From the NCBI GenBank assembly GCA_017937095.1, contig JAGBEG010000004.1:1-64000 (forward strand): a DNA stretch of 64,000 bases, written 5' to 3'. This document shows positions 1,406 through 20,423 of this stretch, in pieces. This stretch comes from Roseburia sp. Lineage in GTDB: Bacteria; Bacillota; Clostridia; Lachnospirales; Lachnospiraceae. The position numbers were made by a program, and so were the translations under genes. The notes under the pieces are model-generated. The model did no database searches. It was not told the origin of the DNA and worked only from the letters and a program-made list of their open reading frames with translations. The stretch's first letter is position 1, and the number at the start of each line of letters is the position of its first letter.

Positions 1406-2485
1406 CTACAAGAACAGATGCGCAGGATTAATTTTCTTCTCGTTTATCTGCGATATCATCGCTTCCCGCAGTGCAAGCAAAAACTCCGGCGTCCATTTTG
1501 CTTCCATCGCCATTGACAACAGCATCATATCAACACGCTCCTTCATAATCGGATTCTCTTCCATCTTCGGACAGCGCTTGTACATTTCCTTCTGGCAGAA
1601 TTGTAATATATCGAACGGAATCGGATTATATTTCAGTAAAAACTTCCAAAAGGTTTTCAGCAGAAACGTCCTCACAAAAATATACTCCGCCATATCTCTC
1701 TGCGCATCCAATATTCCGCGGCGCTCACACTCATCATAAAATGCAATTCCCGCTTTGCATCTCTCGAACTGTCTTCTACTGTTAATGACCGAATCATGTG
1801 ACCAGCTTCCGATATAATTTCTGTAATTAATTAACACCTTGTCTAATTTCCCAATCTTTTTACAATACATTACTGCCAAACCAGAGAACAAATTATCTGA
1901 AAATCCCGTCCACATTTCACCCTCATTAGAACATATATGATTCTCCTCCAGAAATTCCTTTTTATAAACTTTGCTCCAGACAAACGTCTTTCCAGGGAGA
2001 ACACCGCTTCTGGCATAATCATTCCGTCTCTCTTCATTTTCTATCATATACCTCGAAAATGAACCCTCGTTTCTACATGACATCCTCGTTTGATTTCCTT
2101 CTTCATCCACATATCGGATTCCGTATTCAATGTAATCCAAGTCAGGATGTTCACACATCAGCTTTGTTAATATCTCTATCGCATTCGGCTCATACCAGTC
2201 ATCCTGATCAAGCCACAAAATATACTCCCCGGACGCATAAGCCAACGCAACCTTTCTGTTATCTTCCTTCGTTTCTCCGGAATTAACGTCACGCACAACC
2301 AGGCAGACATTCTCAGGATATCTGCTCTCATATTCCTTTAAAATCTCTACCGTAGAATCTGTGGACGCATCGTCCACCACAATAATTTCCAGTTCCTTAA
2401 GCCCGACCGTCTGATTTATTACAGAATCTATGCACTGCTGCAAATATTTTTCACCATTATACGTGCAAATGATTACACTGACCAC
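1406..2485 (-). CDS. family 2 glycosyltransferase
   Basis: A 359-residue GT-A enzyme. The N-terminus MVSVIICTYNGEKYL is the GT2 nucleotide-sugar binding strand, followed by VVDDASTDST and the metal-binding region WLDQDDWYEPN. The C-terminal ~150 residues are helical and not diagnostic. No membrane segments are seen. The start is GTG at 2485, with GGAGG 6 bases upstream, and one base separates it from the preceding stop. It is the last gene of the leftward island and probably adds a sugar to the glycan that the other enzymes activate. Donor and acceptor cannot be read from the sequence. Confidence 0.85.
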   Translation of the reverse strand: MVSVIICTYNGEKYLQQCIDSVINQTVGLKELEIIVVDDASTDSTVEILKEYESRYPENVCLVVRDVNSGETKEDNRKVALAYASGEYILWLDQDDWYEPNAIEILTKLMCEHPDLDYIEYGIRYVDEEGNQTRMSCRNEGSFSRYMIENEERRNDYARSGVLPGKTFVWSKVYKKEFLEENHICSNEGEMWTGFSDNLFSGLAVMYCKKIGKLDKVLINYRNYIGSWSHDSVINSRRQFERCKAGIAFYDECERRGILDAQRDMAEYIFVRTFLLKTFWKFLLKYNPIPFDILQFCQKEMYKRCPKMEENPIMKERVDMMLLSMAMEAKWTPEFLLALREAMISQINEKKINPAHLFL

Positions 2486-2486
2486 T

Positions 2487-3995
2487 CTATGCCTCCTTAT
2501 CCGACTGCAGTTCCTTTTTCACATACTCCCATATGTGTTTTCCGACATCTCCCTGCGTATTATAAACTAAATCTGCAAATTCTGCTTTTCTCCGGTCTGC
2601 CAGAACATCCTCCCCGTCCAGAATCATATCAACATAATCCTCCAGACAGATGATATCCTCATAATATGCCGATTCCAATTTTCTCCCCTTGGAAGCCTCT
2701 ATCAGCTTTTTCCCGGGTGCCGCTGTTTCCCGAAACATTAACCGGCTCTTCTCCTGCAACGTAACGTCCCTGACAAACACAGGCTTACCCGTCACTCCGA
2801 ACATCGTCACAAGCGAGCTCCAATCGCCGATATAAGCATCCGCCAATGCGATTGCCAGATGCGGATCGGGCGTCTCGTCGTACACTCCGTTAGCAAGCGC
2901 TTTAAACTCTTCAATAACCTGTTGATAGTTCTGCAGAATATCCGGATTCATCGCTTTCGCCGTCTCAATGCTGAGCGGATGCGGCCGCCACAATACGGCT
3001 GCATTCCCCCTGTTCTCAAATGCTGTAATGACCTGCTTTAAACCGCGGATCATACAATCTGCATTATTTATAATATAATTCAAATGCGTATTGAGCAAAA
3101 ACACTTTCTTGCTGCCAAGCGCCCCTTTCCATTCATCCGGCATACCAGGCTTATGCGTTTCGTTGTATATGATCTTATCTATTTTGGGCGAACCGGTTGT
3201 AACGATTTTTTCCGGCTGATTATATTTCAGATAAACTTCCCTCACCTGCTCGGACTGCGCAAATACCCGCCATGCATTTTTGACGCCTGGCATCACACAG
3301 TAGAAATCCTTCACCTTACCGTTACAAACTTTATATGGTATATACACCAAATGGTCTGTATGTTTCTTCAACTCCGAGCTAAAGTAACGCTCTGGCAATG
3401 AAGTAACATGGTTTTTATCGTCATACGGATTATGGATAAATATCACATCCGGCTGCATATCCGCGATACTGTATTCCTTGTAGTCCGTAATCGGAATTCC
3501 TGTCGGAAACTGCGCTCCTTCATACTCCATTTCCAGATCTGTCCTATCCTCTGTCACATGATAGTATGGCACGGGCATGACCCGCACCTCACAGTCCGCC
3601 GACTCTGCCGCTGCCAGATAAACAGATTCCAACGCATCCCACATAGACGCTTTGTACGGAATAAACAGAATCTCATATACAGATGGCAGTATCTCAGCTA
3701 TCTTGCGCTCTGCACTTTCGCATCTTTGCGCCACTTCGCTGCGTTTCCGGCAATCTGCATAATTTCCAGTAAGGCTCAGTTCATAGATCAGCTCGGCAAG
3801 CTCCGTCAGTAATGCGATCGCAGAATCACAATCGCTAACACACCGTTCAACCGTATCCCCGATTGCAATGACAGCCTCCTGCATCATTTGAAGAACCGGC
3901 AGGACATCTTCCTGCTCCACTGCTGCAAGCTGCCGCACTCCTTCACTCACTGTGTTAAATAGCTGCTTTACGTTATTCCTCAGCCTCTTACTCAT
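2487..3995 (-). CDS. CDP-glycerol glycerophosphotransferase-like protein
   Basis: A 502-residue protein with a helical N-terminal ~110 residues, then a GT-B-like region. This contains FIPYKASMWDALESVY, HLVYIPYK, the TGSPKID segment, VLWRPHP and a late ALADAYIGDWSS segment, as in polyglycerol- or ribitol-phosphate polymerases of the TagF/TagB type (PF04464). The family moves polyol phosphates from CDP-activated donors onto teichoic acids or capsules. Here it sits directly after the phosphonate genes, so a CMP/CDP-activated donor made nearby is plausible as substrate. That is inference. The start ATG has GGGGAG 5 bases upstream. Confidence 0.7.
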   Translation of the reverse strand: MSKRLRNNVKQLFNTVSEGVRQLAAVEQEDVLPVLQMMQEAVIAIGDTVERCVSDCDSAIALLTELAELIYELSLTGNYADCRKRSEVAQRCESAERKIAEILPSVYEILFIPYKASMWDALESVYLAAAESADCEVRVMPVPYYHVTEDRTDLEMEYEGAQFPTGIPITDYKEYSIADMQPDVIFIHNPYDDKNHVTSLPERYFSSELKKHTDHLVYIPYKVCNGKVKDFYCVMPGVKNAWRVFAQSEQVREVYLKYNQPEKIVTTGSPKIDKIIYNETHKPGMPDEWKGALGSKKVFLLNTHLNYIINNADCMIRGLKQVITAFENRGNAAVLWRPHPLSIETAKAMNPDILQNYQQVIEEFKALANGVYDETPDPHLAIALADAYIGDWSSLVTMFGVTGKPVFVRDVTLQEKSRLMFRETAAPGKKLIEASKGRKLESAYYEDIICLEDYVDMILDGEDVLADRRKAEFADLVYNTQGDVGKHIWEYVKKELQSDKEA

Positions 3996-4022: not shown

Positions 4023-5141
4023 CTAGTAGGTACTCTCTAATATTTCAATAACATCCTCTGCATCCAGTTCTACCGGATTATTGTCCATTCTGCCCAACGT
4101 AAATGAACTGTGCGCAATATCAGCAATCGCCTCTTTCGTTATCTGATAATCACGCAGATTAAGCGATACCTCTGTTCCGCACACTCTTTCTAAATATGCC
4201 CGGATTCCTCCGTGCTCCGCAAATAATGCAAGCAGCTCTTCCTCTTCTTCAAACGCTCCCTGATTGCGCTCTGCTACCTGCGCTAATGTCATGGCAACCG
4301 CCGTGCCATGCGGTATATGATACTGCATGGTAAGCGGGTATGAAATCGAATGGCATGCCGTTGTCCTTGTCATGGAAAATGCAAGCCCAGATAAGACGGA
4401 TGCCACGCACTGTTTCTCGCGCAGTGAAACATCTGAAGGATTTCTTAAAATCTGCTCAAGATACTGAATGGTTGTCCGAATGGATTCCCGCGCCAATCCA
4501 CGCACCAGCGGCGACGACTTTTTCGACCAATATGCTTCCATTGCATGTGCCATAGAGTCTAAGCCAGTGGTAATCGTAAGCTTCCGATCTGCTTGTGCCA
4601 CAAATTCCGGGACGATATATGCCTGATCCGGTTTTAATGCATCCTGATCAATCGAATACTTGCATCTCTTATCATCGTCCCAGATTGTTGCCCACTTCGT
4701 GACCTCAGCGCCGGTCCCCGCTGTTGTCGGAACCGCAATAATGTCGATCTGATTCTCCCGAATCTGCTTTTTCTGCAAATGCTCCGTAATCGCACCTGCC
4801 GTCACCTCTTCGCCGGAATTATAGAATGCTTTCATCCCTTTTGCAAAGTCAATCGCGCTCCCGCCGCCAACTGCCAGAATTGCCTCCGGCTCGAAACCCC
4901 GCAGCGCGTCAAGTCCACTTTTGAGCATCCCCTGTGTAGGATAAGAAACAGATTCCTTGATCCACAGAAGCTCATACTGTTCTTCGAGCGCATGAACAAA
5001 ATTCTCTAACCGGTATCTTCTATGCGCCTGCTCTGACATAATCAGCACCAGCTTCCGATAAGGAAGTCTCAGACAGCAGTCCTGCAACTGTCCTGCATTT
5101 ACAAATTCTATATTCGTTCTGCAAAAATCACTGTATACCAT
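4023..5141 (-). CDS. iron-containing alcohol dehydrogenase, probable phosphonoacetaldehyde reductase
   Basis: A 372-residue group III alcohol dehydrogenase. The NAD-binding loop is VGGGSAIDFAKG (about 92-103), followed by PTTAGTGAEVTKWATIW. Metal-ligand regions are GLDSMAHAMEAYWSK and the later HSISYPLTMQYHIPHG. The family includes phosphonoacetaldehyde reductases (PhpC type) that make 2-hydroxyethylphosphonate. Placement in the same run as PEP mutase and phosphonopyruvate decarboxylase strongly favours that role over ethanol or butanol metabolism. The start ATG follows AGAGGAGACAT. If correct, it draws phosphonoacetaldehyde away from the transamination route of the PntC-like enzyme at 17.6 kb. 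Confidence 0.75.
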   Translation of the reverse strand: MVYSDFCRTNIEFVNAGQLQDCCLRLPYRKLVLIMSEQAHRRYRLENFVHALEEQYELLWIKESVSYPTQGMLKSGLDALRGFEPEAILAVGGGSAIDFAKGMKAFYNSGEEVTAGAITEHLQKKQIRENQIDIIAVPTTAGTGAEVTKWATIWDDDKRCKYSIDQDALKPDQAYIVPEFVAQADRKLTITTGLDSMAHAMEAYWSKKSSPLVRGLARESIRTTIQYLEQILRNPSDVSLREKQCVASVLSGLAFSMTRTTACHSISYPLTMQYHIPHGTAVAMTLAQVAERNQGAFEEEEELLALFAEHGGIRAYLERVCGTEVSLNLRDYQITKEAIADIAHSSFTLGRMDNNPVELDAEDVIEILESTY

Positions 5142-5172: not shown

Positions 5173-5877
5173 TTATTTCAGCAGGCTTCTCACTGCAAGC
5201 AGATCCTCTTCTCTGTCCACTTCCTGACATAACAGATTCCCAAAATCATATGGATGCAATTTCATCTGATCCGTGACCTGATTCAGTGCATTTTCTGCAT
5301 AACAGGACACCTCGCCTGACTCGCAGAATGCCACGATCTGATTGAGCCACACGTTCCATGCCGCCTCACCCAAATGGTATAAAGGCTGCGCCGCAACTGC
5401 ATTCTCCATAAATTCAATGCCGACCGCCTGAATGATACCGTCTTTTAAGACCGCCTTAAAATCTTTCTCGGGCAATTCCATCGCAGAGCTGACTGCCATA
5501 CAGTCTGCCTCTGACTTTACGACCTGTTCAAGGACTTTCTCCTCAAATACCAGATCGCCGTGCATCAGAACAATCTCATCGTGCAGAAACTCCCTTGCCA
5601 GATAAATAGAGTAAATATAGTTCGTCTCCTTGTATTGAGGATTATTCACAAACGCTATCTGAAGCGGTAAATCAAGTGATTTTATATGATTCTTCAAGAG
5701 TTCCTCGTAAGGCCCTGTCGTCATTACCACTTCGGTAATTCCCATCTGCGCGATGAGCCGGAGCTGTCTTGCAACAATCGTCTCATTCTCCTTCAGAGGC
5801 ACCATACACTTTGGAGACGACACAGTATATTTTCCCATTCTGCTTCCCAGACCAGAATTAAGTATTAAAGCCTTCAA
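5173..5877 (-). CDS. LicC-type nucleotidyltransferase, probable CTP:phosphonate cytidylyltransferase
   Basis: A 234-residue single-domain NTP transferase. The glycine-rich signature LNSGLGSRMGKYT (residues 6-18) with PKCMVPL and later LMHGDLVFEE matches LicC/choline-phosphate cytidylyltransferases. Homologues in phosphonate clusters charge 2-hydroxyethyl- or 2-aminoethylphosphonate with CMP. The start appears to be TTG at 5877, with AAAGGAG about 9 bases upstream overlapping the end of the decarboxylase gene. The aldehyde reductase next door makes CMP-hydroxyethylphosphonate a reasonable product, but a choline-phosphate or sugar-phosphate substrate is not excluded. Confidence 0.7.
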   Translation of the reverse strand: MKALILNSGLGSRMGKYTVSSPKCMVPLKENETIVARQLRLIAQMGITEVVMTTGPYEELLKNHIKSLDLPLQIAFVNNPQYKETNYIYSIYLAREFLHDEIVLMHGDLVFEEKVLEQVVKSEADCMAVSSAMELPEKDFKAVLKDGIIQAVGIEFMENAVAAQPLYHLGEAAWNVWLNQIVAFCESGEVSCYAENALNQVTDQMKLHPYDFGNLLCQEVDREEDLLAVRSLLK

Positions 5878-5880: not shown

Positions 5881-7011
5881 CTATATCTCCTTTACATACT
5901 GCATAAAATTCTCTTTATTTTCCTCTGCCGTCGTCGTCGGACGTCCCAGGTCACTTCTTGCGCCCAATGCAGCTTTGATTTCAATAAATGTCAATTCATC
6001 TGCCGCTTTTGCCGTTTCTACCGCCTGCGCGACCTCCTCCTCCGTAGATGCTTTCAATATTTTTCTGTAGCCACATCCCTCGGCAATCTTCGCAAGGTCA
6101 ATCTTCCCTGCAACCGTTGGCATCCCACCCACGGTCTCATGCGACTCATTATTGATCACAATGTGCACATAATTGTGGGGAGCATTCGCTCCGATTACCG
6201 CCATCGCTCCCATATGCATGAGCGCTGCTCCGTCACCGTCAATACACCACACCTTCTTGTCTTTCTTTTCCAGTGCAATGCTAAGTGCAATGGAAGAACT
6301 ATGTCCCATTGAACCGACCGTAAGAAAATCATATTTATGCGGCTGTCCGTTCTGCTCTCTGATTTCGAACAACTCCCTCGACGCTTTTCCCGTCGTCGAT
6401 ACGACAATATCTTCACCGATGCCTTTTACAATTTCTCTTAATGCCTCTTCCCGCTTCATCGTGTATGGATTGACATATTTTACCGGATTGTCGCTGGTCA
6501 ACGCGCCCTTTTCCACGATGAACGCCACACATTTTCCTTCCGCCAATGTCTGCTTTAAGCTTTCCGCCGCCGCTTTCAATTCATCAGTAGTCATGTCCTT
6601 TCGTACAATAACTGTCTGAATCGTAAGCAGCTCCATAAGGCTCTGTGTGATTTCACCCTGAAATACATGCTGCGGTTCATCCTTCGTTCCCGGTTCACCG
6701 CGCCAGCCTACCACAAAGACGCAGGGAATCCTATATACTTCCGGCGCCAGCAGAGACGCATACGGATTTAACATATTTCCCTCGCCGCTGTTCTGCATAT
6801 AGACGCAGGGAATTTTTCCGGTCGCAAGATGATATCCCGCCGCAAGCCCGGTTGCATTTCCCTCATTCGCAGCTACGATATGCTTGTCCGAAACCCCGTA
6901 TTTATTCACGATTTCACCCGTAAATGGGCTAAGCAATGAATCCGGTACTCCCGCGTAAAATCCAATTCCAAATGCCTCTTCTAATACATCAATAAAATCC
7001 GCAGCTTTCAT
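5881..7011 (-). CDS. aepY: phosphonopyruvate decarboxylase
   Basis: A 376-residue thiamine-diphosphate enzyme. The N-terminal half has YAGVPDSLLSPF and ANEGNATGLAAGYHLATG with the conserved catalytic Glu. The C-terminal half has the ThDP motif GDGAALMHMGAMAVIG (from about residue 259) with the closing INN. This two-half arrangement in about 380 residues is typical of phosphonopyruvate decarboxylase, which makes the otherwise uphill PEP mutase reaction irreversible by releasing CO2 and phosphonoacetaldehyde. It lies 15 bases downstream of the PEP mutase gene, has GGAGG upstream of its ATG, and is probably co-transcribed. Confidence 0.92.
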   Translation of the reverse strand: MKAADFIDVLEEAFGIGFYAGVPDSLLSPFTGEIVNKYGVSDKHIVAANEGNATGLAAGYHLATGKIPCVYMQNSGEGNMLNPYASLLAPEVYRIPCVFVVGWRGEPGTKDEPQHVFQGEITQSLMELLTIQTVIVRKDMTTDELKAAAESLKQTLAEGKCVAFIVEKGALTSDNPVKYVNPYTMKREEALREIVKGIGEDIVVSTTGKASRELFEIREQNGQPHKYDFLTVGSMGHSSSIALSIALEKKDKKVWCIDGDGAALMHMGAMAVIGANAPHNYVHIVINNESHETVGGMPTVAGKIDLAKIAEGCGYRKILKASTEEEVAQAVETAKAADELTFIEIKAALGARSDLGRPTTTAEENKENFMQYVKEI

Positions 7012-7026: not shown

Positions 7027-8307
7027 TTAGATTAATGTCAATATCTCCTTAATCGGCATACAAGCCTCGTCTACCTCCAGAGAGCGCTCATTCTCCAGAA
7101 TTGTATGTGCAACCTTATTCATCGCCGGGAATGCACTTCGAATCAGATGATTCGCATAAATAATAATGTTGACGCCACATTTGCCAAGTTCTTTTTCTGT
7201 TATTTGATTATAGGTAGTCGGCACAACAACAATCGGTACATCTGCGCACTTCTCTCTGAACTTCGCACAGAACTCCAGCACTTCATCCGGCTCTTTACTC
7301 TTAGAATGAATCATAATTCCGTCCGCCCCGGCTTCCACATAAGCAAATGCCCTCGTTAGCGCGTCCGTCATGCCCTGTGCCAGAATCAGGCTTTCGATTC
7401 GCGCAATAATCATAAAATCGCTCGTTGTCTGCGCTGCCTTCCCCGCACGTATCTTGGCGCAGAAATGCTCAATGGAATCCTGCTGCTGCGCTGCATCTGT
7501 TCCAAACAGAGAATTCTTCTTTAATCCAATCTTATCCTCAATGATAATCGCAGATACGCCCATCCGCTCTAAGGTCTTTACCTTATACACGAAATGCTCG
7601 GTGATTCCGCCTGTGTCCCCATCCAGGATAATCGGTTTCGTCGTCACTTCCATAATCTCATTGATCGTATTCTCACGCGAGGTCATATCTACAAGCTCAA
7701 TATCCGGCTTGCCCTTCGCTGTAGAATCGCACAAACTCGATATCCACATCGCATCAAACTGTCTGACTTCGTCGTCCTTTTCGACCCGTGCCTTTTCCAC
7801 GATCAACCCAGTGATGCCGTTGTGTGCCTCAAGGACACGAAGCGGTCTGTCTGCAAGCTGCAATGCCCTCTTTAGCTTTCCCCGTCGAACCTCCGGCATA
7901 TAACGGAGTTGATCTGCCTGCCTGTCAAATATTTCATATTCGCTTTTATCCGTATATGGAAATTCCACGAGCTCGCCACCATACTGTTGTAATAGCTTCT
8001 CGACTTTTTCCCTCGACTTTCCTCTCCAACGGTCACTATGTACTACATAATCCGGTCTTAACTCCGATATTACTTTCTCATAACTAAGAGAATCCTTCTT
8101 GACCACCTTAGCTACCCCTTTGATATGGCTGATAATACTGCATCTCTCCTCAAATGTCAGTATCGGATAACCACGGTATGACATAATGACCTCATCCGAC
8201 AGGACACCGACGGTAAGCTCTCCTAATTCCGCTGCTTTCTCAATAATCGCGATATGTCCTCCGTGAATGAACTCCGCTCCAATACTCAAAAATACTGTCT
8301 TTGCCAT
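7027..8307 (-). CDS. aepX: phosphoenolpyruvate mutase with N-terminal cytidylyltransferase-like domain
   Basis: A 426-residue two-domain protein. Residues 1-~135 form a HxGH nucleotidyltransferase-like domain (H15-G-G-H18, then LTFEERCSIISHI). Residues ~145-426 form the isocitrate-lyase-fold PEP mutase with the diagnostic E257-D-K followed by N265-S266. It interconverts PEP and phosphonopyruvate, the first C-P bond step. The ATG at 8307 is preferred over a TTG 27 bases upstream that overlaps the LicD gene: GAGAGGG lies about 10 bases before it and the gap to the LicD stop is only 2 bases. The N-terminal domain occurs in related mutases of anaerobes and could supply a third cytidylyltransferase activity. 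Confidence 0.93.
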   Translation of the reverse strand: MAKTVFLSIGAEFIHGGHIAIIEKAAELGELTVGVLSDEVIMSYRGYPILTFEERCSIISHIKGVAKVVKKDSLSYEKVISELRPDYVVHSDRWRGKSREKVEKLLQQYGGELVEFPYTDKSEYEIFDRQADQLRYMPEVRRGKLKRALQLADRPLRVLEAHNGITGLIVEKARVEKDDEVRQFDAMWISSLCDSTAKGKPDIELVDMTSRENTINEIMEVTTKPIILDGDTGGITEHFVYKVKTLERMGVSAIIIEDKIGLKKNSLFGTDAAQQQDSIEHFCAKIRAGKAAQTTSDFMIIARIESLILAQGMTDALTRAFAYVEAGADGIMIHSKSKEPDEVLEFCAKFREKCADVPIVVVPTTYNQITEKELGKCGVNIIIYANHLIRSAFPAMNKVAHTILENERSLEVDEACMPIKEILTLI

Positions 8308-8309: not shown

Positions 8310-9251
8310 CTACTTTTCCCTCTCTTTCTCCCAATCCTCTTTTGTCAGATAAAGGTATTCTTTGTTCATGTATTCTTCCACACTGCGCCCCCGCAAGTCA
8401 ATTTCAACGTCAAACGAATAGCTTTTGGGCGGATGGATAAACCGCTGTGACTCTGGTGGATACTTCCACATATTTGTATATTTGTTTTCCAGATATGCCA
8501 TATAATCCTTACAAACATAGAACATGAAACCTTCAAACTCTATTTCTGTCTTATCCTTAAACCACTCCGATGCCACTCCCTGGTCATACCATTTTCCCAT
8601 TTTGGCAAATGCATCCCGACGATAAAAGGAAATGCAGTACTGACGTTTGGTTTCCTTTTGGTTTGCTCTCTTGCCAAGCCACTCCATAATACCCAGCGGC
8701 ACTTCCTTGGGTACGTGCCTCAATCCATGATACAAGAGGCGTTTCGCGGGATTCGGATCCGCCGTGACTCCTATTACCGACCACAAAGTCTTAATACAGC
8801 CCCTCCGCAAAAGCTGGTAAATTCCTGATACAAAGTGATTATCCGGCATATTATCAATAATGAAAATATCGATCGATACACCGGACATGCATTTAATCGC
8901 CTCCTGCCCCGCTCTTAAATATTCCGTTCCCTTTCTTCTGACCTTTGCATATCCCCAACGGTATCCCGGGTCTGTCCGGGCTGTCTGCAGGAAGAACCGG
9001 CTCGTATCCAACTTTGTCTCGCAGACCTTCTCGAATTTCTCAAATTCGCCTCGTGTCATCCTAAGGTCCAAGTCATCATCCCATGGAATAAAACCTTTAT
9101 GCCGTACCGCTCCTAATGCCGTTCCCGCTAATAGAAAATATGTAATCTCATTCTCCCGACAGATTCTATCTACCTCAAGCAGCATCTCCAATTCTATTAG
9201 CTGCAGCTTTCTCAAGTCCTCTGCGGGCATTCTCTTTTTTTCAGTTTCCAT
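8310..9251 (-). CDS. LicD-family phosphotransferase (first of five)
   Basis: About 313 residues. The LicD catalytic core is GTALGAVRHKGFIPWDDDLD, with the three aspartates that bind metal and nucleotide. The family transfers phosphocholine, or in phosphonate producers probably a phosphonate, from a CMP/CDP-activated donor to a glycan. It is the most divergent of the five copies here: it lacks the shared N-terminal MMKRAWAA block and has a longer middle with a short hydrophobic stretch. The start is uncertain. METEKK at 9251 is chosen, although an in-frame extension overlaps the acetyltransferase gene. It directly precedes the PEP mutase gene. Confidence 0.85.
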   Translation of the reverse strand: METEKKRMPAEDLRKLQLIELEMLLEVDRICRENEITYFLLAGTALGAVRHKGFIPWDDDLDLRMTRGEFEKFEKVCETKLDTSRFFLQTARTDPGYRWGYAKVRRKGTEYLRAGQEAIKCMSGVSIDIFIIDNMPDNHFVSGIYQLLRRGCIKTLWSVIGVTADPNPAKRLLYHGLRHVPKEVPLGIMEWLGKRANQKETKRQYCISFYRRDAFAKMGKWYDQGVASEWFKDKTEIEFEGFMFYVCKDYMAYLENKYTNMWKYPPESQRFIHPPKSYSFDVEIDLRGRSVEEYMNKEYLYLTKEDWEKEREK

Positions 9252-11659: not shown

Positions 11660-11660
11660 A

Positions 11661-12344: not shown

Positions 12345-13563
12345 CTTCTCCCTCCAATACAATACATACATTTTCTTCAATCTTTAAAATCAATCGATCC
12401 AGTTCTTCCCTGCTCTTAGCAACAGCAATGTAAAATCCCACTCTTGCGCTGTCATTTTCCGCCTTATGAATGATATCGCCGGGCTTGAATTGAAACTCAT
12501 ACAGGACAATCTGCGGAAGATTTTTCAGGATATCTTCCCCATCTACTCTGACGACCTTACCACCATTCCCCTGTACATCCCAAAACTTTAACACCGCACA
12601 CTTTCCTGCTGCATCCACGGATTTTATGTGTTCCCCAGGCAACTGCGGCGCCCCCAGTGTGCCTTCTAACAACAGCTTATAATTATCAATCCCCGTCAAA
12701 TTAGGAACTATATGAGAGGAGATAAAATTGCCTCCCCCTCTTGCACCAATCTCTATTAAAACAAACTCTTTCCCATTATACTTATATTCCGCATGTGTAA
12801 ATCCAAATGGCAGTCCGCTCATCTCCACAAATCTGTCATTCTGCTCCCGCAGACGCACATAATCATATTCTTCATCCTCCTCTGAAAAATAAAGTTCACA
12901 TGCTATATTCGGATTGTATGCATAATGCTTTTTCTTTGAGATTGCGAGCGAATAATGCTTCCCGTTCACGACAACACCATCAACCGTAAACTCTGTTCCC
13001 TCTATATACTCCTCGCACAATACTGCCTGATTTACTTTGGAAAATACGATTGCCTGCGCAAAATGAGGTTCTACCATTTCTTCCGATACAATCGTAAAAA
13101 CCCCTCTGCTGCTATTGCTGTCCAGCGGTTTGATAATCATTTTCTTCTTTTCCAGATTCCGGAAGAATGCAACCGCCTCCCCAGCCGATCTGCACTGTCT
13201 GTACTTCGGATACGGCATCGCGTGTTCCCTGCAGAACTCCCGCATCAGATACTTATTCGTATACAGCGCCGCCAGCTTAGACCCTATTGATGGCAGTCCC
13301 AATTTTTCACTGACGTACGCGACGGTCGGCATTGCAATATCACACTCATCTGATAAGACGGCAATTACCTCATGTCTTTTTGCCACGTCCAGACAGAATT
13401 CCCTGTCCAAAATATCCCCCTGCTCGCATATATCCGCATAAGGGAACGCCGGCGAATCCTTATACGGATTCACACATACGACACAATATCTCTCTTCCTG
13501 TAATTTGCAAATCAGCGGAATCTGCGCCTTTGCACCGGGGATGACCATTATTTTCTTCTTCAT
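12331..13563 (-). CDS. ATP-grasp ligase
   Basis: A 410-residue ATP-grasp protein. It has an N-terminal Rossmann-like region (KKIMVIPGAKAQIPLI), the nucleotide-binding lysines in KMIIKPLDSNSSRGVF, the CEEYIEGTEFTVDGVV segment, and the metal-binding FVLIEIGARGGGNFIS. This is the carbamoyl-phosphate-synthase-L/BL00235 type that joins a carboxylate to an amine via acyl phosphate. Its ATG overlaps the DegT stop as ATGA, so the two are coupled. It probably builds an amide-linked substituent on an amino sugar or aminophosphonate; this is inference. Confidence 0.85.
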   Translation of the reverse strand: MKKKIMVIPGAKAQIPLICKLQEERYCVVCVNPYKDSPAFPYADICEQGDILDREFCLDVAKRHEVIAVLSDECDIAMPTVAYVSEKLGLPSIGSKLAALYTNKYLMREFCREHAMPYPKYRQCRSAGEAVAFFRNLEKKKMIIKPLDSNSSRGVFTIVSEEMVEPHFAQAIVFSKVNQAVLCEEYIEGTEFTVDGVVVNGKHYSLAISKKKHYAYNPNIACELYFSEEDEEYDYVRLREQNDRFVEMSGLPFGFTHAEYKYNGKEFVLIEIGARGGGNFISSHIVPNLTGIDNYKLLLEGTLGAPQLPGEHIKSVDAAGKCAVLKFWDVQGNGGKVVRVDGEDILKNLPQIVLYEFQFKPGDIIHKAENDSARVGFYIAVAKSREELDRLILKIEENVCIVLEGEDVRN

Positions 13564-14705
13564 TCTACGACTCCGTTCCCGCTTAGAACACACGACTTAA
13601 CAATCTCCGTAATCCTGTCCAGCATTTCATATGGAAGTTCCGGATAAAGCGGCAATACAAGAATATTATCCCCCGCATATCTTGCGTTCTCCAATAAGAC
13701 CTTCTTGTACTTATTCTTAAAGCACGCCGCATCCGCCGTAATCGGATAAAAATATTTCCTCGAATATATCTCCGCTTCTCTTAACTTGTCATAGACGAAG
13801 TCGCGCATACCCCCCCCCTGGTATTTTCCGGTTTCAAATAATACCGGAAAATACCCGTAAGAATATGTAACATTTTCCTCGTCACGTGCACACAATTTCA
13901 ATCCCGGTATATTCCCAAGCTTTTCCGTGTAATATTCACTGCGGTTCTTTCTTTCGCGAATATTTTCCCCGAGATATTTTAGATTACACAATCCCATCGC
14001 TGCACAGAACTCATTCATCTTCGCATTGGCTCCGACCTCCGCGACAACCTCCTCCGAGCGTATGCCGAAATTTTTCAGGTTATACAGCTTCTTGTAGAGA
14101 CCCTCCTCACGAAAAGTAATCGCGCCTCCCTCAATCGTATTGTAAACCTTTGTCGCATGAAAGCTGAACACGGATGCATCACCGAAATTGCCGACGCCAG
14201 TTCCATTCACAGTCTCTCCAAATGCATGCGCCGCATCATAGATTACCTTCAGATTATACTTATCCGCGATCTCCTGTATCCGCTTTACGTTGCAGATGTT
14301 CCCATATACATGAACCGGCAGAATTGCCACTGTCTTCTCCGTAATCAGTTCTTCTATCTTCTCCTCGTCTATCGTATAATCCGACAGCTTAATATCGCAG
14401 AATACCGGAACCAGCTTGTTACGAATAATCGCGTGTGTCGTCGATATAAAAGTAAACGGTGTCGTAATGACCTCCGCCCCTTCCGGAAACCCCATCGCCT
14501 GTAAGGTAAGCTCAAGCGCCATATGACCATTCACCATCAATGACAACTGCGGGACTCCCATATATTCCTTTAATCCCTGCTCCAAACGATTATGATAGTC
14601 TCCCATGTTCGTCAGCCAATGAGACTCCCACAGAGGTCTTATCATCTCCACATACTCTTCAAATTCAGGCATAGAGCTTCTTGTGACCAGTACCTTCTCA
14701 TTCAT
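13560..14705 (-). CDS. DegT/DnrJ/EryC1-family sugar aminotransferase
   Basis: A 381-residue PLP enzyme. It shows NGHMALELTLQAMGFPEG, TTPFTFISTTHAI, DAAHAFGE and the lysine segment FSFHATKVYNTIEGGAI, all diagnostic of the family that transaminates nucleotide-linked keto sugars. The ATG at 14705 follows AAGGAG by 7 bases, in preference to an earlier in-frame codon. It lies just downstream of a terminator and is the first gene of the stretch leading to the phosphonate genes, so either read-through or an unseen promoter must serve it. Confidence 0.9.
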   Translation of the reverse strand: MNEKVLVTRSSMPEFEEYVEMIRPLWESHWLTNMGDYHNRLEQGLKEYMGVPQLSLMVNGHMALELTLQAMGFPEGAEVITTPFTFISTTHAIIRNKLVPVFCDIKLSDYTIDEEKIEELITEKTVAILPVHVYGNICNVKRIQEIADKYNLKVIYDAAHAFGETVNGTGVGNFGDASVFSFHATKVYNTIEGGAITFREEGLYKKLYNLKNFGIRSEEVVAEVGANAKMNEFCAAMGLCNLKYLGENIRERKNRSEYYTEKLGNIPGLKLCARDEENVTYSYGYFPVLFETGKYQGGGMRDFVYDKLREAEIYSRKYFYPITADAACFKNKYKKVLLENARYAGDNILVLPLYPELPYEMLDRITEIVKSCVLSGNGVVE

Positions 14706-14727
14706 CTTATATCTCCTTCGTATCGAC

Positions 14728-14773
14728 AAAAGCCATTACAAAACGCTTCACTCTCTGTCCTGTAATGGCTTTT
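14728..14773 (-). terminator. terminator after the small helical-protein gene
   Basis: Thirteen-base arms AAAAGCCATTACA/TGTAATGGCTTTT with a 20-nt loop. On the minus strand it ends in GGCTTTTGTC. It separates the 120-residue gene from the DegT gene and makes the former potentially monocistronic. Confidence 0.65.
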
Positions 14774-14792
14774 ATAATAATCTCATATAAAA

Positions 14793-15155
14793 TTAGGCAA
14801 TGACCTCTCTTGCCGCCGCTCCAAGCTTCTCCAATTCCGGTCCAAGTTCGTTAAATGCATCCGCAATCTTCTGATCGTCCTTCGCCTTGACTGCCTCCCC
14901 GAGAGCAACGATCTTCTCATTGAAAACTTCCTTGGCAACCCGCTCTTTTCCCTCGTTGATCACATCCATCGTTGCATTAAACACCTGAATCTCCCAGTTA
15001 ATTGCATTGATAATGCTGTCCTGAAACTTATCTGTGTCGTCCAGACGCTGTCCAGACAATTCCTTTACCAAAATTCCTATATTCTTGACTACCTTATCAT
15101 TAAATTCGACAAGTGTCTCTAACGCTTCAATCTTTTCTGCTCTGTTATCCTCCAT
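14793..15155 (-). CDS. small all-helical acidic protein, unknown function, late-flagellar control
   Basis: 120 residues (start MEDNRAEK with AGGTGG 6 bases upstream). No signal peptide or membrane segment is seen. It is predicted all-helical and rich in Glu, Lys and Ala (KIEALETLVEFNDKVVKNIG and the C-terminal ELGPELEKLGAAAREV). I do not recognise a named family. It has its own sigma-28-like promoter and a terminator directly after it, so it looks like an independent late-flagellar gene placed inside the glycosylation island. A small flagellin- or secretion-related chaperone is possible but unproven. Confidence 0.75.
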   Translation of the reverse strand: MEDNRAEKIEALETLVEFNDKVVKNIGILVKELSGQRLDDTDKFQDSIINAINWEIQVFNATMDVINEGKERVAKEVFNEKIVALGEAVKAKDDQKIADAFNELGPELEKLGAAAREVIA

Positions 15156-15209
15156 GATTCCACCTGACCTTACAGCCATTTCCTTTCCTTGTATTTATGT
15201 CTCTTTTAT

Positions 15210-15245: not shown

Positions 15246-16451
15246 TTACTTTGGTTCTTCCAAATTATTTAATATATATTCTATTACCTCTCTGACCGCA
15301 CCGCCTCCACCCGGACGCTTTGTGACATAATCTGCAATTTCTTTGACTTCTTCCACTGCTCCCGGCACACTGGCAGAAAAACCCACTGCCTGAAGAAGCT
15401 CCTTATCATTTATATCGTCCCCCACATATGCCACTTCTTTCATGGTTATTCCTTGTTCCCTGCAGAGCTCCTGCACAACAGAAAGCTTGTCACTTACCCC
15501 CATCCTTAAGATGTCAAGCTTAAGCTTTTCTGCGCGGCGCGCTACAAGTTCTCTGTTCTCACCTGTGATAATGCCGCATAAAATTCCCCGCTCACGCATC
15601 AGCCGGAATCCCAGACCGTCGAGAGCAGAAAATTTCTTTAATTCATCCCCATTTTCGGAATAATACATGCCTCCGTCCGTGAGACATCCGTCGCAGTCTG
15701 TCAGAAACATCTTTATCTTCTTTACGCCTGCCCGCTCTCCCTCTTCCTGGGCATGCAGACGCCGCTCAAGCAGCATTTCTATCATCTTCCAATCAGACGG
15801 CTCGTCAATCTCAAAGAAGGTATCTTCGTCCATCTCCACTGCCTTGACTCTTCCGGAAATACGGTTCCCCGTCTCCAGCAGACGCGCTTTGGACGTGATA
15901 TAGAAAGCCCCGTTCTCCACGCAATAACCCTCGAACTCCTGACGCCTTGGGCGATGAAAATAATCATAATTCAGCGCCTGCGCCGTACCGTCCGCATCCA
16001 CAGACCAATTAAAGCGCTTCTGACGCACGACCGACAGCACACTGTCCGTATCTGCCTCTTCATACAACGCAAATCCCCTGTTCAAATCATCCGCGGTCAG
16101 AAGCGGCGATGTTGCCTGAATCAGCACAATATGATCGAAGTCGTAGTTCTCTGCAAACTCAAGCATTGCAGATTCCGTAGATGCCGTATCGGAAGCAGAC
16201 TCGGCGCTTCGCCCAATCACTTCCAGCTTATCAAATACAGTATTCGTTTCTGCTTTCTGTATTTCAAGCAGCGTAGCACGAATCTTATCGCTGTCTGTCG
16301 CCACATACACCTTATCAATCTTATCGCAGCCGCAGGCTGCCGCTACGGTCCAATATACCAACGGCTTCCCGCACATCGACTTTATATTCTTGAGCGGAAT
16401 GGATTTGCTTCCTCCCCGCACCGGAATAAACGCTATCGTCCTGTCATTCAT
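15246..16451 (-). CDS. NeuA-type CMP-sugar synthetase fused to a KdsC-type HAD phosphatase
   Basis: A 401-residue fusion. Residues 1-~230 are an acylneuraminate cytidylyltransferase (IPVRGGSKSIPLKNIK, IQATSPLLTADDL, VENGAFYI). Residues ~245-401 are a class C0 HAD phosphatase (D252-C-D-G-C-L-T-D and VGDDINDKELL). The first domain activates a nonulosonic acid with CMP. The second would remove phosphate from a 9-phosphate precursor, as in sialic or legionaminic routes. The short NeuB at 31.5 kb would supply the backbone. The exact sugar (sialic, legionaminic, pseudaminic or other) cannot be read off. Start ATG follows GGGAGAGG. Confidence 0.9.
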   Translation of the reverse strand: MNDRTIAFIPVRGGSKSIPLKNIKSMCGKPLVYWTVAAACGCDKIDKVYVATDSDKIRATLLEIQKAETNTVFDKLEVIGRSAESASDTASTESAMLEFAENYDFDHIVLIQATSPLLTADDLNRGFALYEEADTDSVLSVVRQKRFNWSVDADGTAQALNYDYFHRPRRQEFEGYCVENGAFYITSKARLLETGNRISGRVKAVEMDEDTFFEIDEPSDWKMIEMLLERRLHAQEEGERAGVKKIKMFLTDCDGCLTDGGMYYSENGDELKKFSALDGLGFRLMRERGILCGIITGENRELVARRAEKLKLDILRMGVSDKLSVVQELCREQGITMKEVAYVGDDINDKELLQAVGFSASVPGAVEEVKEIADYVTKRPGGGGAVREVIEYILNNLEEPK

Positions 16452-16498: not shown

Positions 16499-17569
16499 CT
16501 ACTCGTACAATCGGACAAATTCATCCTTATCACAGATCTCTAACCCAAAGACCTTCTCCTCCGGCAGAATTGCAACGCCGGTAAACCATTTCCACACCGT
16601 ATCAATATGCGGCGCCGCTACCCCAAACAATTCCGCTATGTCTTTTATAATCTTCAGTCCGTAGGAGAAATCCGCCACAAAATATCTGGATTCAAAATCC
16701 GGAATCCAGCCACCCTCTGTCTGCTTCATCGGAGAAGTCAGACCCTTGAATGCCTTAATACTTTTCAGTTTCTCTGCCATAGCCCTTGCATCATAGCTCT
16801 CATAGTATTCCCGCAATGATTTTACTTCTTTAAGCTCCAAAGGGATCTCTTCGCATAATGCCTGCAATTCTCCGTCACAGGCAATCAGCCATTCAGCAGA
16901 TTCCACATCCCATTCCTCATAGAACAGAAAGTTTCTCGGATAGACAACGTCCTTACCGTAATCTTTGAACATCGAATAAAGCCTTGTTGTGTGAAGAATC
17001 GGATTCGACGGCGTCAACGTAACAGAAAGATAATTCGGCAGCAAGCTGCATGGCATATCAAACATCTTCTCAAGAACCGGCGCTATTTTCTCACCGGCAT
17101 CTGACGGAATCGCCCCGAGCTCCAGCCTGCTTTTCCGCCCTAACATATAGACAGATTTCCCATATTCCTTTAACCGTGCGATGCTATGTACTCTCTGTAA
17201 ACCAAACAGCACACATCCTGCATCAATGAGATGCCGGAATGCAAATTCTGCGCCGCCGCTTCCCGGCACCACCCCGATGTACTGTCCGCTTTTTATATAA
17301 GGCAGCAACTTTTCTGCCATCTCTTTAAATGTCTGAGCCGGCGTCACGATCCATACCATAACCGCATCGCATACCGCCTCCTGCATATCCGACGTGATTT
17401 TATATAGTTCTCCTGTAAGAATCCGGTGATCGCCGGGGTCATACACCTCAATTTCGCGGTTCCATTGTTCCGGTTTCGAGGTATATACTGTCACCTCATG
17501 ACCTTTGGCAGCCATTTCTGCCGCCATCAGTGTTCCAATGTTGCCTCCCCCTATTATAGTAACCTTCAT
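16499..17569 (-). CDS. octopine/nopaline dehydrogenase-family oxidoreductase
   Basis: 356 residues with an N-terminal Rossmann fold (IIGGGNIGTLMAAEMAAKGH) and the ODH C-terminal domain signature TPSNPILHTTRLYSMF. Known relatives reductively condense an amino acid with a 2-oxoacid (opines) or act on other 2-substituted acids. It sits between the PntC-like fusion and the NeuA fusion, suggesting that it modifies a glycan or phosphonate building block, perhaps N-alkylating an amine. No described phosphonate pathway that I know of fixes its role. Confidence 0.75.
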   Translation of the reverse strand: MKVTIIGGGNIGTLMAAEMAAKGHEVTVYTSKPEQWNREIEVYDPGDHRILTGELYKITSDMQEAVCDAVMVWIVTPAQTFKEMAEKLLPYIKSGQYIGVVPGSGGAEFAFRHLIDAGCVLFGLQRVHSIARLKEYGKSVYMLGRKSRLELGAIPSDAGEKIAPVLEKMFDMPCSLLPNYLSVTLTPSNPILHTTRLYSMFKDYGKDVVYPRNFLFYEEWDVESAEWLIACDGELQALCEEIPLELKEVKSLREYYESYDARAMAEKLKSIKAFKGLTSPMKQTEGGWIPDFESRYFVADFSYGLKIIKDIAELFGVAAPHIDTVWKWFTGVAILPEEKVFGLEICDKDEFVRLYE

Positions 17570-17622
17570 AATATACTTTGACGCCTCCCCTAATGTTCCG
17601 CTTTATGGCACCGTCTTAACCA

Positions 17623-19425
17623 TCACAATCTTTTCTCAAGAGCGCTTAGCAGTTCATCATTATCCTCACGATCTCTTATCGCAATTCTGATGTACTGCTT
17701 TCCATTGTCAATCTTTCCGGTAAGATCCTTAATCAGAATGTTATCCTTTAACAGCTCTGCCGCCAAAGTTTCGCTGCGCTTTCCGTTCGTCAGCTCACAC
17801 ATAAAGTAATTTGCAGAGGACGGATACACCTTAAGTCCCTTTACCTTGCAGAGATTCTGATAAAAGCGTTTTCGTTCTTCTCTGATAAAAACCAGCGCCT
17901 GCTGGTAATCGTTTCTGTATTTATCTAATATCTGCATGAAAAACTCTCCTATAGAGTTAATGTTCCATATAGACACTTTCTTCTTCAATGCCGCTATCAT
18001 ATCTTCATCATAGCTCGCCAGAACTCCCAGCCGCAGTCCCGGTACCCCGTAGGACTTTGAAATGCTCTTAATCAGATACAGCCCCGGATATTTCTTCAAA
18101 ATGCTCTCAGACATCATAGAAGCGTTTTCTTCATCCGCAAAATCGAGAAAACTCTCGTCCAGAATCAGCGCAGTTCCGGTAGACTTGCACCAATCCAGAA
18201 TACGTCTGACTTCTTTCTTTTCCAGATAATGCCCGGACGGATTATCTGGATTGATCAGGACAAGTACACTGACCGGATGCTCTGTAAAATAGCCGCATAC
18301 GCTCTCTGCATTATAGGAGAAGTCATTCTCCCTGCAATCATATACCACATACTCGCCTTTGCAGCGATTCGGATACTCTTCAAAAGTCGGACGGATCACG
18401 CCCACGTCTCCCTCTAATTCTGCCAAAAGCTCCTTAATCAGCTCTGCCGCTCCATTCCCAATCACAATGTGCTCCTCGGTCATGCCGAAGCTCTTGGCAG
18501 CCAGAAGGGTGTTGATCCGCATACCGGACGGGTACTGCCGAACCAATGCGTCAAAGCTTGACTTTATCTCATCCATCATCCGTCCAGTCGGGAAATATGG
18601 ATTGACAAGATAACAGAAATCCTTCAGATGCGGGAAACGCCAGTAGCCGCCATACCTTGACGTCAAGGTCTTATAGCGTTCGACATCATCCTCAAGAAAC
18701 AGCAGTTCCGCAATATCCAGATCCTGAATGTCATCAATTTCATACCACTGCTCACCGTGCAGACGTTTCGCCTTCATGGTATTCTTATCCAGCATCAGAA
18801 TCAACTTGATAACCGTTTCATAATATTCATTATTCCCCATTACCTTTGCGTACGCTTCCAGGAACGGAACATAGACATTTCTCGAAAAGTCCGCACTAAG
18901 CTTATAGATATTTACCGTCTTATAATAGCGCTCTTTATCGGAGTACTTAAGCAGCTTTCCCGGAATAAAATCGAGAATATTATCCTCGTCGTCTACCACA
19001 ATGCAGGTTCCGTCCATCCAGTTTTCAAATTTATCCACAAGCGCCAGCGTATCGCGCGTATCCTCAAGGATCAGGTCAATCAGGCTCTCCTCGAAAATCA
19101 AATCAGACTCCATCAGCAGTGTATCTTCCTGCGCCATCTGCTCTTTTGCAAGGGCAAGCGAGAAAATATTATTTGTTTTGTCATATACGTCATTGATAAT
19201 ATACTCTATCGGCGTATTTATGCCAAGGCTGTCCACGAACGCCATTAAATTATCACGCTGGTAGCCGACGACCATAATGATCCGTGACAAACCCTTTTTA
19301 TCAAGAATCCGCAAAGCTCTCTCGACCAGCTTTACGCCTCCGACCTCCACCATGCATTTTGTATTTTCTTTCGTGAGTTTCCCTAAACGTTTTCCCATTC
19401 CCGCCGCTAAGATAATTGCCTGCAT
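17623..19425 (-). CDS. pntC: PntC-like bifunctional cytidylyltransferase and aminoethylphosphonate transaminase
   Basis: A 600-residue fusion. Residues 1-~240 are a nucleotidyltransferase (ILAAGMGKRLGKLTKENTKC, MESDLIFEE). Residues ~255-600 are a class I/II PLP aminotransferase (GNGAAELIKELLAE, INPDNPSGHYLE, DESFLDFADE, and the Schiff-base lysine K457 in SISKSYGVPGLRLG). This order matches PntC of treponemes and other phosphonate producers, which transaminates phosphonoacetaldehyde to 2-aminoethylphosphonate and activates it as CMP-AEP. The PEP mutase and decarboxylase in the same series support this. A HisC/CobD-like role for the second domain is the alternative. GGAGG precedes the ATG. Confidence 0.85.
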   Translation of the reverse strand: MQAIILAAGMGKRLGKLTKENTKCMVEVGGVKLVERALRILDKKGLSRIIMVVGYQRDNLMAFVDSLGINTPIEYIINDVYDKTNNIFSLALAKEQMAQEDTLLMESDLIFEESLIDLILEDTRDTLALVDKFENWMDGTCIVVDDEDNILDFIPGKLLKYSDKERYYKTVNIYKLSADFSRNVYVPFLEAYAKVMGNNEYYETVIKLILMLDKNTMKAKRLHGEQWYEIDDIQDLDIAELLFLEDDVERYKTLTSRYGGYWRFPHLKDFCYLVNPYFPTGRMMDEIKSSFDALVRQYPSGMRINTLLAAKSFGMTEEHIVIGNGAAELIKELLAELEGDVGVIRPTFEEYPNRCKGEYVVYDCRENDFSYNAESVCGYFTEHPVSVLVLINPDNPSGHYLEKKEVRRILDWCKSTGTALILDESFLDFADEENASMMSESILKKYPGLYLIKSISKSYGVPGLRLGVLASYDEDMIAALKKKVSIWNINSIGEFFMQILDKYRNDYQQALVFIREERKRFYQNLCKVKGLKVYPSSANYFMCELTNGKRSETLAAELLKDNILIKDLTGKIDNGKQYIRIAIRDREDNDELLSALEKRL

Positions 19426-19442
19426 ACCTTGTCCTCCATGAC

Positions 19443-20423
19443 TTAAACATATAATTTTCCTGTTGATACTTTATCACAAAATTCCTCTACACTCCCCGTG
19501 AAGCCAACTGCTGCAATCTGCTTTTTCAACTCGTCCTCCATGTGTCCATAGAAAGGATAATCGTGTGCCGCCGCACCTTTGACCGGCGTCATATAGTCAC
19601 CGTACAGTGTTGTCAGAACACTGTCATACTCTTTGGGCGCCGGAATCTCCATGTTCTCAAAAGGCAGATACACCACCTCATCAAACCATTCCTTTTTGAA
19701 ATGAAAACGCTCCTTATCAATCCAGAACTCATACTCCGTCAGTTCCTCTGCTTCTTCAATCCGGCATAAGGAACTGACTGCATCCAGCATACGCCAGATC
19801 CAGTTCCTGCTTCCCTCGCCCCTTGGTATCTGCATACCTGACATCTGCTCGAGTGTCTGTAATGCACACTCTAAACTGTGCTGCTCCTCCAACATCTCCC
19901 AATCCCGCAAAAGCGGGATTCCATGTCGAATAATATCTTTCTGCAATTCCGCCTGCTTTGCATCCTTCGGAATCGCATCCAGCGGAAAAATATCAATTCC
20001 CACCCGCTGATAAGGGAATCCGTGAAACCGCTTCATATAATCGTTAAAATTCCACAACTTCTCGTCTGCAATCACCCGAAGTTGCGGAACATATGCCGCT
20101 TTCTGCAGGCGCTCGCTCCCCGCATACATACCGGCAACTACAAATCCATATGGCAATTCCTTTGGCAGAAGCTTTATCAGCCTGTCATACTCGTCCCTTT
20201 TCATGCATATATCAATATCATCATCCCACGGAATAAATCCCTTGTGCCGAACCGCTCCGAGCAATGTTCCTGCATCCGCAAAATACTGCAAGCCGTTCTT
20301 CCTGCACACATCATCTATAACGCCCAGCACTTCCATCTGTGCCGCCCACGCGCGCTTCATCATCTCATCTATTTCAAATCCATCCCGTACTTCCCGTCTC
20401 AAAAAATCTTTTGAAAAATTCAT
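19443..20423 (-). CDS. LicD-family phosphotransferase (second)
   Basis: 326 residues. The conserved start region EMMKRAWAAQMEVL, the catalytic GTLLGAVRHKGFIPWDDDID and the C-terminal YGDYMTPVKG and DYPFYGHMED define the paralogue type shared by four of the five LicD genes here. It lies 17 bases before the PntC-like gene and is probably the first gene of the leftward operon, so CMP-aminoethylphosphonate is the obvious candidate donor. A GAGGAG site precedes the ATG at 20423. Confidence 0.9.
   Translation of the reverse strand: MNFSKDFLRREVRDGFEIDEMMKRAWAAQMEVLGVIDDVCRKNGLQYFADAGTLLGAVRHKGFIPWDDDIDICMKRDEYDRLIKLLPKELPYGFVVAGMYAGSERLQKAAYVPQLRVIADEKLWNFNDYMKRFHGFPYQRVGIDIFPLDAIPKDAKQAELQKDIIRHGIPLLRDWEMLEEQHSLECALQTLEQMSGMQIPRGEGSRNWIWRMLDAVSSLCRIEEAEELTEYEFWIDKERFHFKKEWFDEVVYLPFENMEIPAPKEYDSVLTTLYGDYMTPVKGAAAHDYPFYGHMEDELKKQIAAVGFTGSVEEFCDKVSTGKLYV

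Follow-up and report, generated by a model that had tools for sequence, protein, structure and literature searches.

A flagellin phosphonate has been reported for C. difficile, in which, according to the available excerpts of the reports, 2-aminoethylphosphonate (AEP) was found on FliC and its source left open (PMC8861647). The species is pepM-negative in the survey cited there (PMC8861647, PMC10714395); a route through CDP-threonine and a TagF-like transferase has been proposed (PMC10714395, PMC11833859), with CD0242 described as a nucleotidyltransferase (PMC10714395). In the Pnt clusters of Rice et al. 2019, as covered by the available part of that paper (PMC6697681), cell-surface glycans carry AEP, and a phosphoenolpyruvate (PEP) mutase, PepM, is fused to a cytidylyltransferase, with a separate LicC/PntC-like enzyme and LicD close by; the word stem "flagell" is absent from its main text. 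The fosfomycin enzyme Fom1 is described there as forming CMP-2-hydroxyethylphosphonate (CMP-HEP). In Prochlorococcus, phosphonylated surface glycoproteins have been postulated (PMC8931226, in the part available). Here we describe a six-gene PepM cassette in a 64,000-nucleotide stretch of DNA (hereafter referred to as the window), the initial 64 kb of the 314-kb contig JAGBEG010000004.1 of Roseburia sp. (GCA_017937095.1; genome 3.89 Mb, with a single PEP mutase). Its gene content and comparative genomics indicate that the cassette probably decorates flagellin with a phosphonate, and the window is best read as a flagellin glycosylation island that includes a putative 2-hydroxyethylphosphonate (HEP)-type cassette; several such cassettes occur in related bacteria. 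The cassette and the flagellar genes around it are as follows (ORF, open reading frame).

328..1161, minus strand: flagellin W01 (PF00669 1.5e-40, PF00700 7.4e-18; ORF 328-1176, likely start 1161)
2487..3995, minus strand: W03, PF04464-like, candidate CDP-X/CMP-X phospho(no)transferase (PF04464, 25.0 bits)
4023..5141, minus strand: iron-containing alcohol dehydrogenase (Fe-ADH) W04, predicted phosphonoacetaldehyde reductase (PF00465, PF25137)
5173..5877, minus strand: NTP_transf_3 nucleotidyltransferase W05, LicC/PntC-like (PF12804)
5881..7011, minus strand: phosphonopyruvate decarboxylase, Ppd (TIGR03297, 457.1 bits)
7027..8307, minus strand: PEP mutase, PepM, with an N-terminal cytidylyltransferase domain (ORF to 8334; the relative in locus L133 points to a start at 8307)
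8310..9251, minus strand: LicD1, candidate phosphonyl transferase (PF04991, 2.8e-37; ORF to 9335, its L133 relative pointing to a start at 9251)
37141..39096, minus strand: Maf flagellin glycosyltransferase (PF01973 124.9 bits, cut-off 34.6; NF050051 136.9 bits, under the cut-off of 670)
39399..40211, minus strand: flagellin W32, 270 aa (ORF to 40253; sigma-28-like site without mismatch at 40374-40349)
45571..56471, minus strand: late flagellar block FlgN-FlgK-FlgK-FlgL-FliW-FlaG-FliD-FliS-FliT (named by inspection; FlgL also matched by PF00669; same order in other loci)

The cassette belongs to a series of 17 same-direction genes (W02-W18, minus strand, 1406-20423) separated by gaps of less than 70 bp. 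Read leftward, positions 56471 to 328 mostly form a single region of flagellar and glycosylation genes, with the order late flagellar block, flagellin (39399), Maf (37141), NeuB, several LicD and DUF3880 glycosyltransferases, the series (20423-1406) and flagellin (328), and with two large genes of another kind inside it (40394-45179). The right-hand flagellin lies 19 kb past the series, the interval being filled by LicD, glycosyltransferase and NeuB genes on both strands, and the gene content to the left of the flagellin at 328 is outside view because the window begins at the contig end. An initial annotation of this DNA had placed the phosphonate genes in a single leftward series, in a region shared with maf and flanked by flagellins. 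This layout was confirmed: all these genes are minus-strand ORFs within 1406-20423, Maf (37141-39096) exceeds the PF01973 cut-off, and flagellin ORFs occupy 328-1176 and 39399-40253, the ORF at 39399 giving the 270-residue flagellin when started at a later ATG. Maf, sugar genes (NeuB) and flagellins adjoin the late block, as in a flagellin glycosylation island.

In the proposed pathway, PepM would convert PEP to phosphonopyruvate, Ppd would yield phosphonoacetaldehyde and W04 would reduce this compound to HEP. Activation of HEP with cytidine triphosphate (CTP) to CMP-HEP would fall to W05, to the cytidylyltransferase (CyT) domain of PepM, or to both. LicD1 and/or W03 would transfer the phosphonyl group onto a sugar set on cytosolic flagellin by glycosyltransferases or Maf, and the flagellar export machine would carry the decorated flagellin outside. 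We infer the substrates, the HEP product, the acting transferase and flagellin as the acceptor from sequence and gene context. The initial annotation had already put forward the idea that flagellin, or a glycan linked to the flagellum, bears a phosphonate. This idea gains support from comparative genomics, its acceptor and product remaining predictions; its full novelty is not supported, AEP on C. difficile FliC having been published in 2022 (PMC8861647, in excerpt). What looks new is the genetics, with flagellar islands carrying the carbon-phosphorus (C-P) pathway itself; among the open-access papers listed by the searches, none names a pepM locus in a flagellin island in its title or abstract opening.

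By published descriptions, available in part, the C. difficile type A glycan locus (cd0240-cd0244) has glycosylation genes behind fliC, a proposed CTP activation of a phospho-compound, a proposed TagF-like transfer and a phosphonate on flagellin N-acetylglucosamine, features that parallel those predicted for the cassette. It differs in that the C-P pathway of the window is encoded within the flagellar island itself, with HEP as the indicated product, and no HAD or methyltransferase family (cf. CD0241 and CD0243) was found by Pfam among W03-W08. The window shares with the Pnt clusters the PepM-cytidylyltransferase fusion, the separate LicC/PntC-like enzyme and the nearby LicD, but contains an Fe-ADH rather than the aminotransferase AepZ. 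Fom1, also a CyT-PepM fusion, provides the nearest solved CyT domain, but leads to a free antibiotic. The Prochlorococcus proposal likewise concerns a phosphonate on glycoprotein, but was argued partly from an oligosaccharyltransferase-like neighbour, not from flagellin (PMC8931226, in the part available). The only flagellin phosphonate that we found reported is the C. difficile AEP, with its biosynthetic source left open, and islands with a complete C-P pathway bear on this question. The existence of AEP-type and HEP-type loci linked to flagellin (see below) suggests that the two may be alternative forms of one decoration strategy. The C-P bond resists phosphatases, and flagellin is a major antigen and a TLR5 ligand; such a group on flagellin would, if present, alter the charge and stability of the protein and its recognition by the immune system or by phages.

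The first two pathway enzymes exceed their curated cut-offs. PepM scores 413.8 bits on TIGR02320 (cut-off 319.55), bears the EDKX5NS motif and has an N-terminal CTP_transf_like domain, the best PDB match of which is the Fom1 CyTase (5x3d, 9e-31); Ppd scores 457.1 bits on TIGR03297 (cut-off 312.5). W05 is matched best in the PDB by LicC (1jyk, 8.1e-9) and shares 55% identity with the N-terminal domain of a triple-fusion PepM (genome G188), and W04-like Fe-ADHs also occur in the PepM loci of G421 and G442. AEP-type loci have AepZ near PepM, the seven tested scoring 418-460 bits on TIGR03301; no AepZ over the cut-off was found in the window genome (94.57% complete), the best score being 160.3 (cut-off 360.8), on another contig. 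Types were assigned with phmmer, using one AepZ and two Fe-ADH sequences as queries and counting matches within 8 kb. In a tree of 45 PepM sequences, 12 of them without an assigned type, the 17 AEP and 16 HEP rows were split by a single change, with 100% support in the Shimodaira-Hasegawa-like approximate likelihood ratio test (SH-aLRT); the window PepM lies on the HEP side, its own position there being weak (78). A CyT domain in itself was rejected as a marker of HEP, because AEP loci also possess one, but its HxGH variant and the tree do separate the types. Of the 19 AEP rows bearing the motif, 16 have HEGH (the others HAGH, HHGH and HDGH), against none of the 18 HEP rows, all of which, the window included, have H[G/S/N/T]GH; the rows are phylogenetically related, so that a Fisher test overstates their independence. 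The motif of Fom1 is HPGH. Five typed rows lack an HxGH motif (G123, G681 and G714, HEP; G483 and a G226 fragment, AEP). The predicted product is, thus, CMP-2-hydroxyethylphosphonate rather than an aminoethylphosphonate, a reading based on context and the PepM tree, not on Fe-ADH family membership.

The cassette is conserved in one further species. A scan of named genomes was performed, and among the best 80 loci kept, the closest PepM locus (L133, genome G715) is that of an uncultured Acetatifactor metagenome-assembled genome (MAG; CALWSL010000012.1), with a PepM 88-89% identical to that of the window, the next loci in that set being about 62% identical. Its gene order, LicD1-PepM-Ppd-NTP-FeADH-W03 (NTP standing for the W05-like gene), is that of the window, with gaps of 1-33 bp and identities of 70% for LicD1, 89% for PepM, 82% for Ppd, 75% for NTP, 71% for FeADH and 55% for W03. 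A flagellin with a sigma-28-like site of zero mismatches follows FlgN-FlgK-FlgK-FlgL-FliW-FlaG-FliD-FliS-FliT, and PepM comes 8.7 kb after this flagellin. No relatives of W09-W18 were found within the L133 cassette run; relatives of the DegT aminotransferase (W13) and of the glycosyltransferase W02 (618 bits) lie on the far side of the flagellar block, outside the cassette. Because L133 keeps these six genes alone together, they appear to form a unit and the 1406-20423 series a mosaic, a conclusion based on one second species; a single pathway across the whole series, as envisaged by the initial annotation, is not supported. W03 and its L133 relative score 25.0 and 38.0 bits, respectively, on PF04464 (cut-off 22.1), and W03-like best matches above 50 bits in the PepM loci examined were confined to flagellum-linked loci (window, L133, G022 and G422). 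An AlphaFold2 model of W03 built from two sequences had a mean predicted local distance difference test score of 41 and was not used. HEP has a hydroxyl end and a phosphonate end, making it conceivable that W03, if TagF-like, polymerises HEP on flagellin into a short chain (poly-HEP) resembling teichoic acid, a speculation to which we attach very little weight.

Linkage of PepM to flagellin is recurrent. Two overlapping draws of genomes (397 from the family and 392 from the order) provided 75 PepM genomes (46 and 29 further), 56 of which had a flagellin (PF00669; 32/46 and 24/29), the 19 without one being left out. PepM and a PF00669 match lay on the same contig within 20 kb in 12 of these 56 genomes, including that of the window (expected 2.31, P=2e-6), within 10 kb in five (expected 1.26) and within 40 kb in 17 (expected 4.13); the expectation assumes uniform placement, contig breaks lower the count, and some weak or fragmentary PF00669 rows were left out. 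Mapped onto the PepM tree, linkage (13 rows) required 11 changes, and 200 label shuffles gave 8-13, mostly 11-12. Linkage is therefore not restricted to a few clades and is not explained by shared descent. Linked loci include both AEP (G157, G701 and G706) and HEP types (G139, G188, G022 and G421). In G421, from another family, a W05-like NTP transferase, PepM, a W04-like Fe-ADH and Ppd lie in a run with FliS-FliD-FlaG-flagellin. In four genomes (G315, G139, G421 and G422), flagellin heads a single co-directional run containing PepM (ORFs of at least 90 aa, gaps of at most 116 bp) and has a sigma-28-like site scoring 14-15. Similar gene sets beside flagellin genes in several related bacteria suggest that phosphonate-decorated flagella may occur in these organisms. 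In a locus labelled as a Muribaculum MAG (L187; the label may be a binning error), a flagellin end, a glycosyltransferase, two LicD genes, PepM and Ppd lie close together.

The phosphonate might instead go to wall teichoic acid, exopolysaccharide or a glycolipid, the flagellar island being a mere hot spot for glycan genes, and the membrane genes around PepM bear on this alternative. Genes within 8 kb of PepM were scored at 58 loci by a simple hydropathy scan with a crude threshold. Linked loci comprised the 12 at up to 20 kb together with G381 (21 kb) and G022 (34 kb), whereas G434 and G464 (26 and 37 kb) counted as unlinked; five short loci (G313b, G251, G226, G328 and G452) were left out, as were 14 of the 29 PepM genomes added from the order. 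Predicted transmembrane genes accounted for 7/175 genes in the 14 linked loci versus 132/489 in the 44 unlinked loci (p=1e-12), and polytopic genes for 4/175 versus 84/489, a contrast that may be slightly enlarged by soluble flagellar genes lying within the 8 kb. None of the 10 loci showing a late flagellar block has a polytopic gene (0/126). In the window, the scan predicted no transmembrane stretch in W02-W31 (0/12 genes near PepM), and the polytopic flippase, polymerase or ABC genes of an exported polysaccharide cluster were not found. This scarcity of membrane genes fits a decoration of flagellin in the cytosol. The LicD and PF04464 families are familiar from teichoic-acid work, which favours a wall or glycolipid destination, as do the membrane genes of unlinked PepM loci; exported glycans elsewhere are therefore probably modified by comparable chemistry. 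Given the scarcity of such genes in linked loci, the scatter of linkage over the PepM tree, the flagellin-headed series in four genomes and the position of the cassette behind flagellin in the Acetatifactor MAG, we consider this destination unlikely here.

Several observations weigh against decoration of flagellin with HEP. In 39 of the 56 flagellated PepM genomes, the DNA up to 40 kb from PepM on its contig contains no flagellin, implying that PepM also has other uses and counting in favour of a wall or glycolipid destination. Seven of the 44 unlinked loci are likewise free of polytopic genes, and two linked genomes (G135 and G177) retain them, G177 having no Ppd on its contig and G135 being linked by distance, through a flagellin-like ORF without the late flagellar block in view. 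PepM is absent from both same-genus genomes examined. In L133, a single opposite-strand glycosyltransferase gene separates the flagellin from the cassette. The best NCBIfam match of W04 is TIGR03405, at 211.5 bits (under the cut-off of 423.7), the PF04464 match of W03 in the window is weak and a profile search of the PDB with W03 gave no relative. Finally, no sigma-28-like site was found at the head of the window's series (LicD2, 20423).

The remaining genes of the series and other features of the region are listed below.

1242-1217, minus strand: sigma-28-like site of flagellin W01 (pattern match)
1406..2485, minus strand: GT2 glycosyltransferase W02 (PF00535, 1.6e-34)
9278..9715, minus strand: GNAT acetyltransferase, of another module (PF00583)
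9356..9381, minus strand: weak sigma-28-like site (TAAA-N16-GCGATA) preceding LicD1-PepM, not significant alone
9740..15179, minus strand: AsnB, RraA-like protein, ATP-grasp protein (LAL_C2), DegT aminotransferase (W13) and a 128-aa protein, probably genes for another substituent or sugar
15246..16451, minus strand: CMP-nonulosonate synthetase fused to a KdsC-type phosphatase, KDN-like (NF058599 174.5 bits, cut-off 180; TIGR01670 146.6 bits, over the cut-off)
16499..17569, minus strand: octopine-dehydrogenase-like W16 (PF02317)
17623..19425, minus strand: W17, NTP transferase plus CobD-like class I/II pyridoxal phosphate (PLP) enzyme (best PDB match 6oux)
19443..20423, minus strand: LicD2 (PF04991)
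20451..20475, plus strand: sigma-28-like site before the rightward LicD3-LicD4-sulfatase genes (pattern match)
20520..24538, plus strand: LicD3, LicD4 and a member of the sulfatase superfamily with no predicted transmembrane stretch
31423..31448, plus strand: sigma-28-like site before NeuB (pattern match)
31478..32365, plus strand: NeuB, nonulosonate synthase (PF03102, 7.2e-67; start trimmed by eye)

Sigma-28-like sites were enriched in the window. The pattern with a spacer of 16 and at most one mismatch occurred 14 times (4.49 expected; reached in 0/100 shuffles), and that with a spacer of 15 eight times (4.41 expected; reached in 4/100 shuffles). Sites scoring at least 14 were found upstream of 6/43 genes, those of the two flagellins, FlaG, LicD3, NeuB and LicD1, and in 2.1% of random 250-mers of the window, which are mostly coding sequence. 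Across genomes, operon heads had such a site in 5/12 linked versus 1/29 unlinked loci (p=0.005), a modest difference obtained after the removal of loci with too short an upstream sequence; scoring the window and G715 as misses gave 5/14 linked (p=0.01). On balance, we lean slightly towards PEP-mutase cassettes being an exchangeable flagellin-glycosylation module of Lachnospirales, partly co-expressed through sigma-28, with the flagellin here bearing HEP as a genetically encoded C-P post-translational modification. The promoter region of the right-hand flagellin (40345-40374) contains an inverted repeat, TATCGGA-N7-TCCGATA, with sigma-28-like matches on both strands.

The initial annotation had counted the transaminase fusion W17 (TRANSAMINASE fusion) among the phosphonate steps, and the decoration could be AEP if W17 supplied it. 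W17 combines a PntC/LicC-like half with a PLP enzyme in the domain order of 6pd1 (nucleotidyltransferase/class V aminotransferase), and AEP is known on C. difficile flagellin (PMC8861647, in excerpt). However, 6pd1, which we take to be Tde1415, matches W17 in the nucleotidyltransferase half only, and the PLP half is nearest 6oux, a threonine-phosphate-decarboxylase-like enzyme, and is CobD-like (class I/II), not class V. Near-full-length relatives of W17 (44 rows) were found in 43/397 genomes, only five of which have PepM (G000, G046, G089, G123 and G391), a frequency matching the base rate of 46/397; in the other four of these genomes, the two genes lie more than 1 Mb apart or on separate contigs. 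W17 was therefore rejected as an AEP transaminase, its role as a phosphonate step being unsupported, and, with the window PepM on the HEP side of the tree, an AEP decoration is very improbable. We read W17 as a putative member of a separate CDP-linked substituent module. The octopine-dehydrogenase-like gene adjoins W17 relatives in 3/19 other loci (L100, L108 and L110; 1.5-kb flanks). The pair (16499-19425) also occurs in PepM-free genomes and is perhaps a CDP-ethanolamine or CDP-aminopropanol module.

PepM also opens antibiotic pathways, such as that of fosfomycin through Fom1 (PMC6697681, in the part available), so the cassette might yield a free, secreted, antibiotic-like small phosphonate. 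Pfam recognised no transporter family in the series, in which one 128-aa protein had no match, and LicD1 and W03 remain with PepM in the second species; we hold this outcome to be extremely improbable.

Relatives of the 128-aa protein (14793-15179; no Pfam match) occur in the flagellar/PepM loci of G177 and G706 (47 and 66 bits). The KDN-like CMP-synthetase/phosphatase fusion (15246-16451) and NeuB (31478-32365) suggest a short KDN-type nonulosonate route for flagellin. In G135 (contig C104, 24586-32647; L033 and L034), an 854-aa SecA adjoins Ppd-PntC-PepM-AepZ and the lone flagellin-like ORF, with polytopic genes present. Finally, PepM relatives (best-segment identity 42-55%) are encoded on 26 putative viral contigs in IMG/VR (L215-L240), with Ppd matches in 25/26 (as two ORFs in 23) and Fe-ADH matches in 25/26 (30-122 bits), so that these contigs, classified as viral, probably carry phosphonate cassettes of the HEP type.

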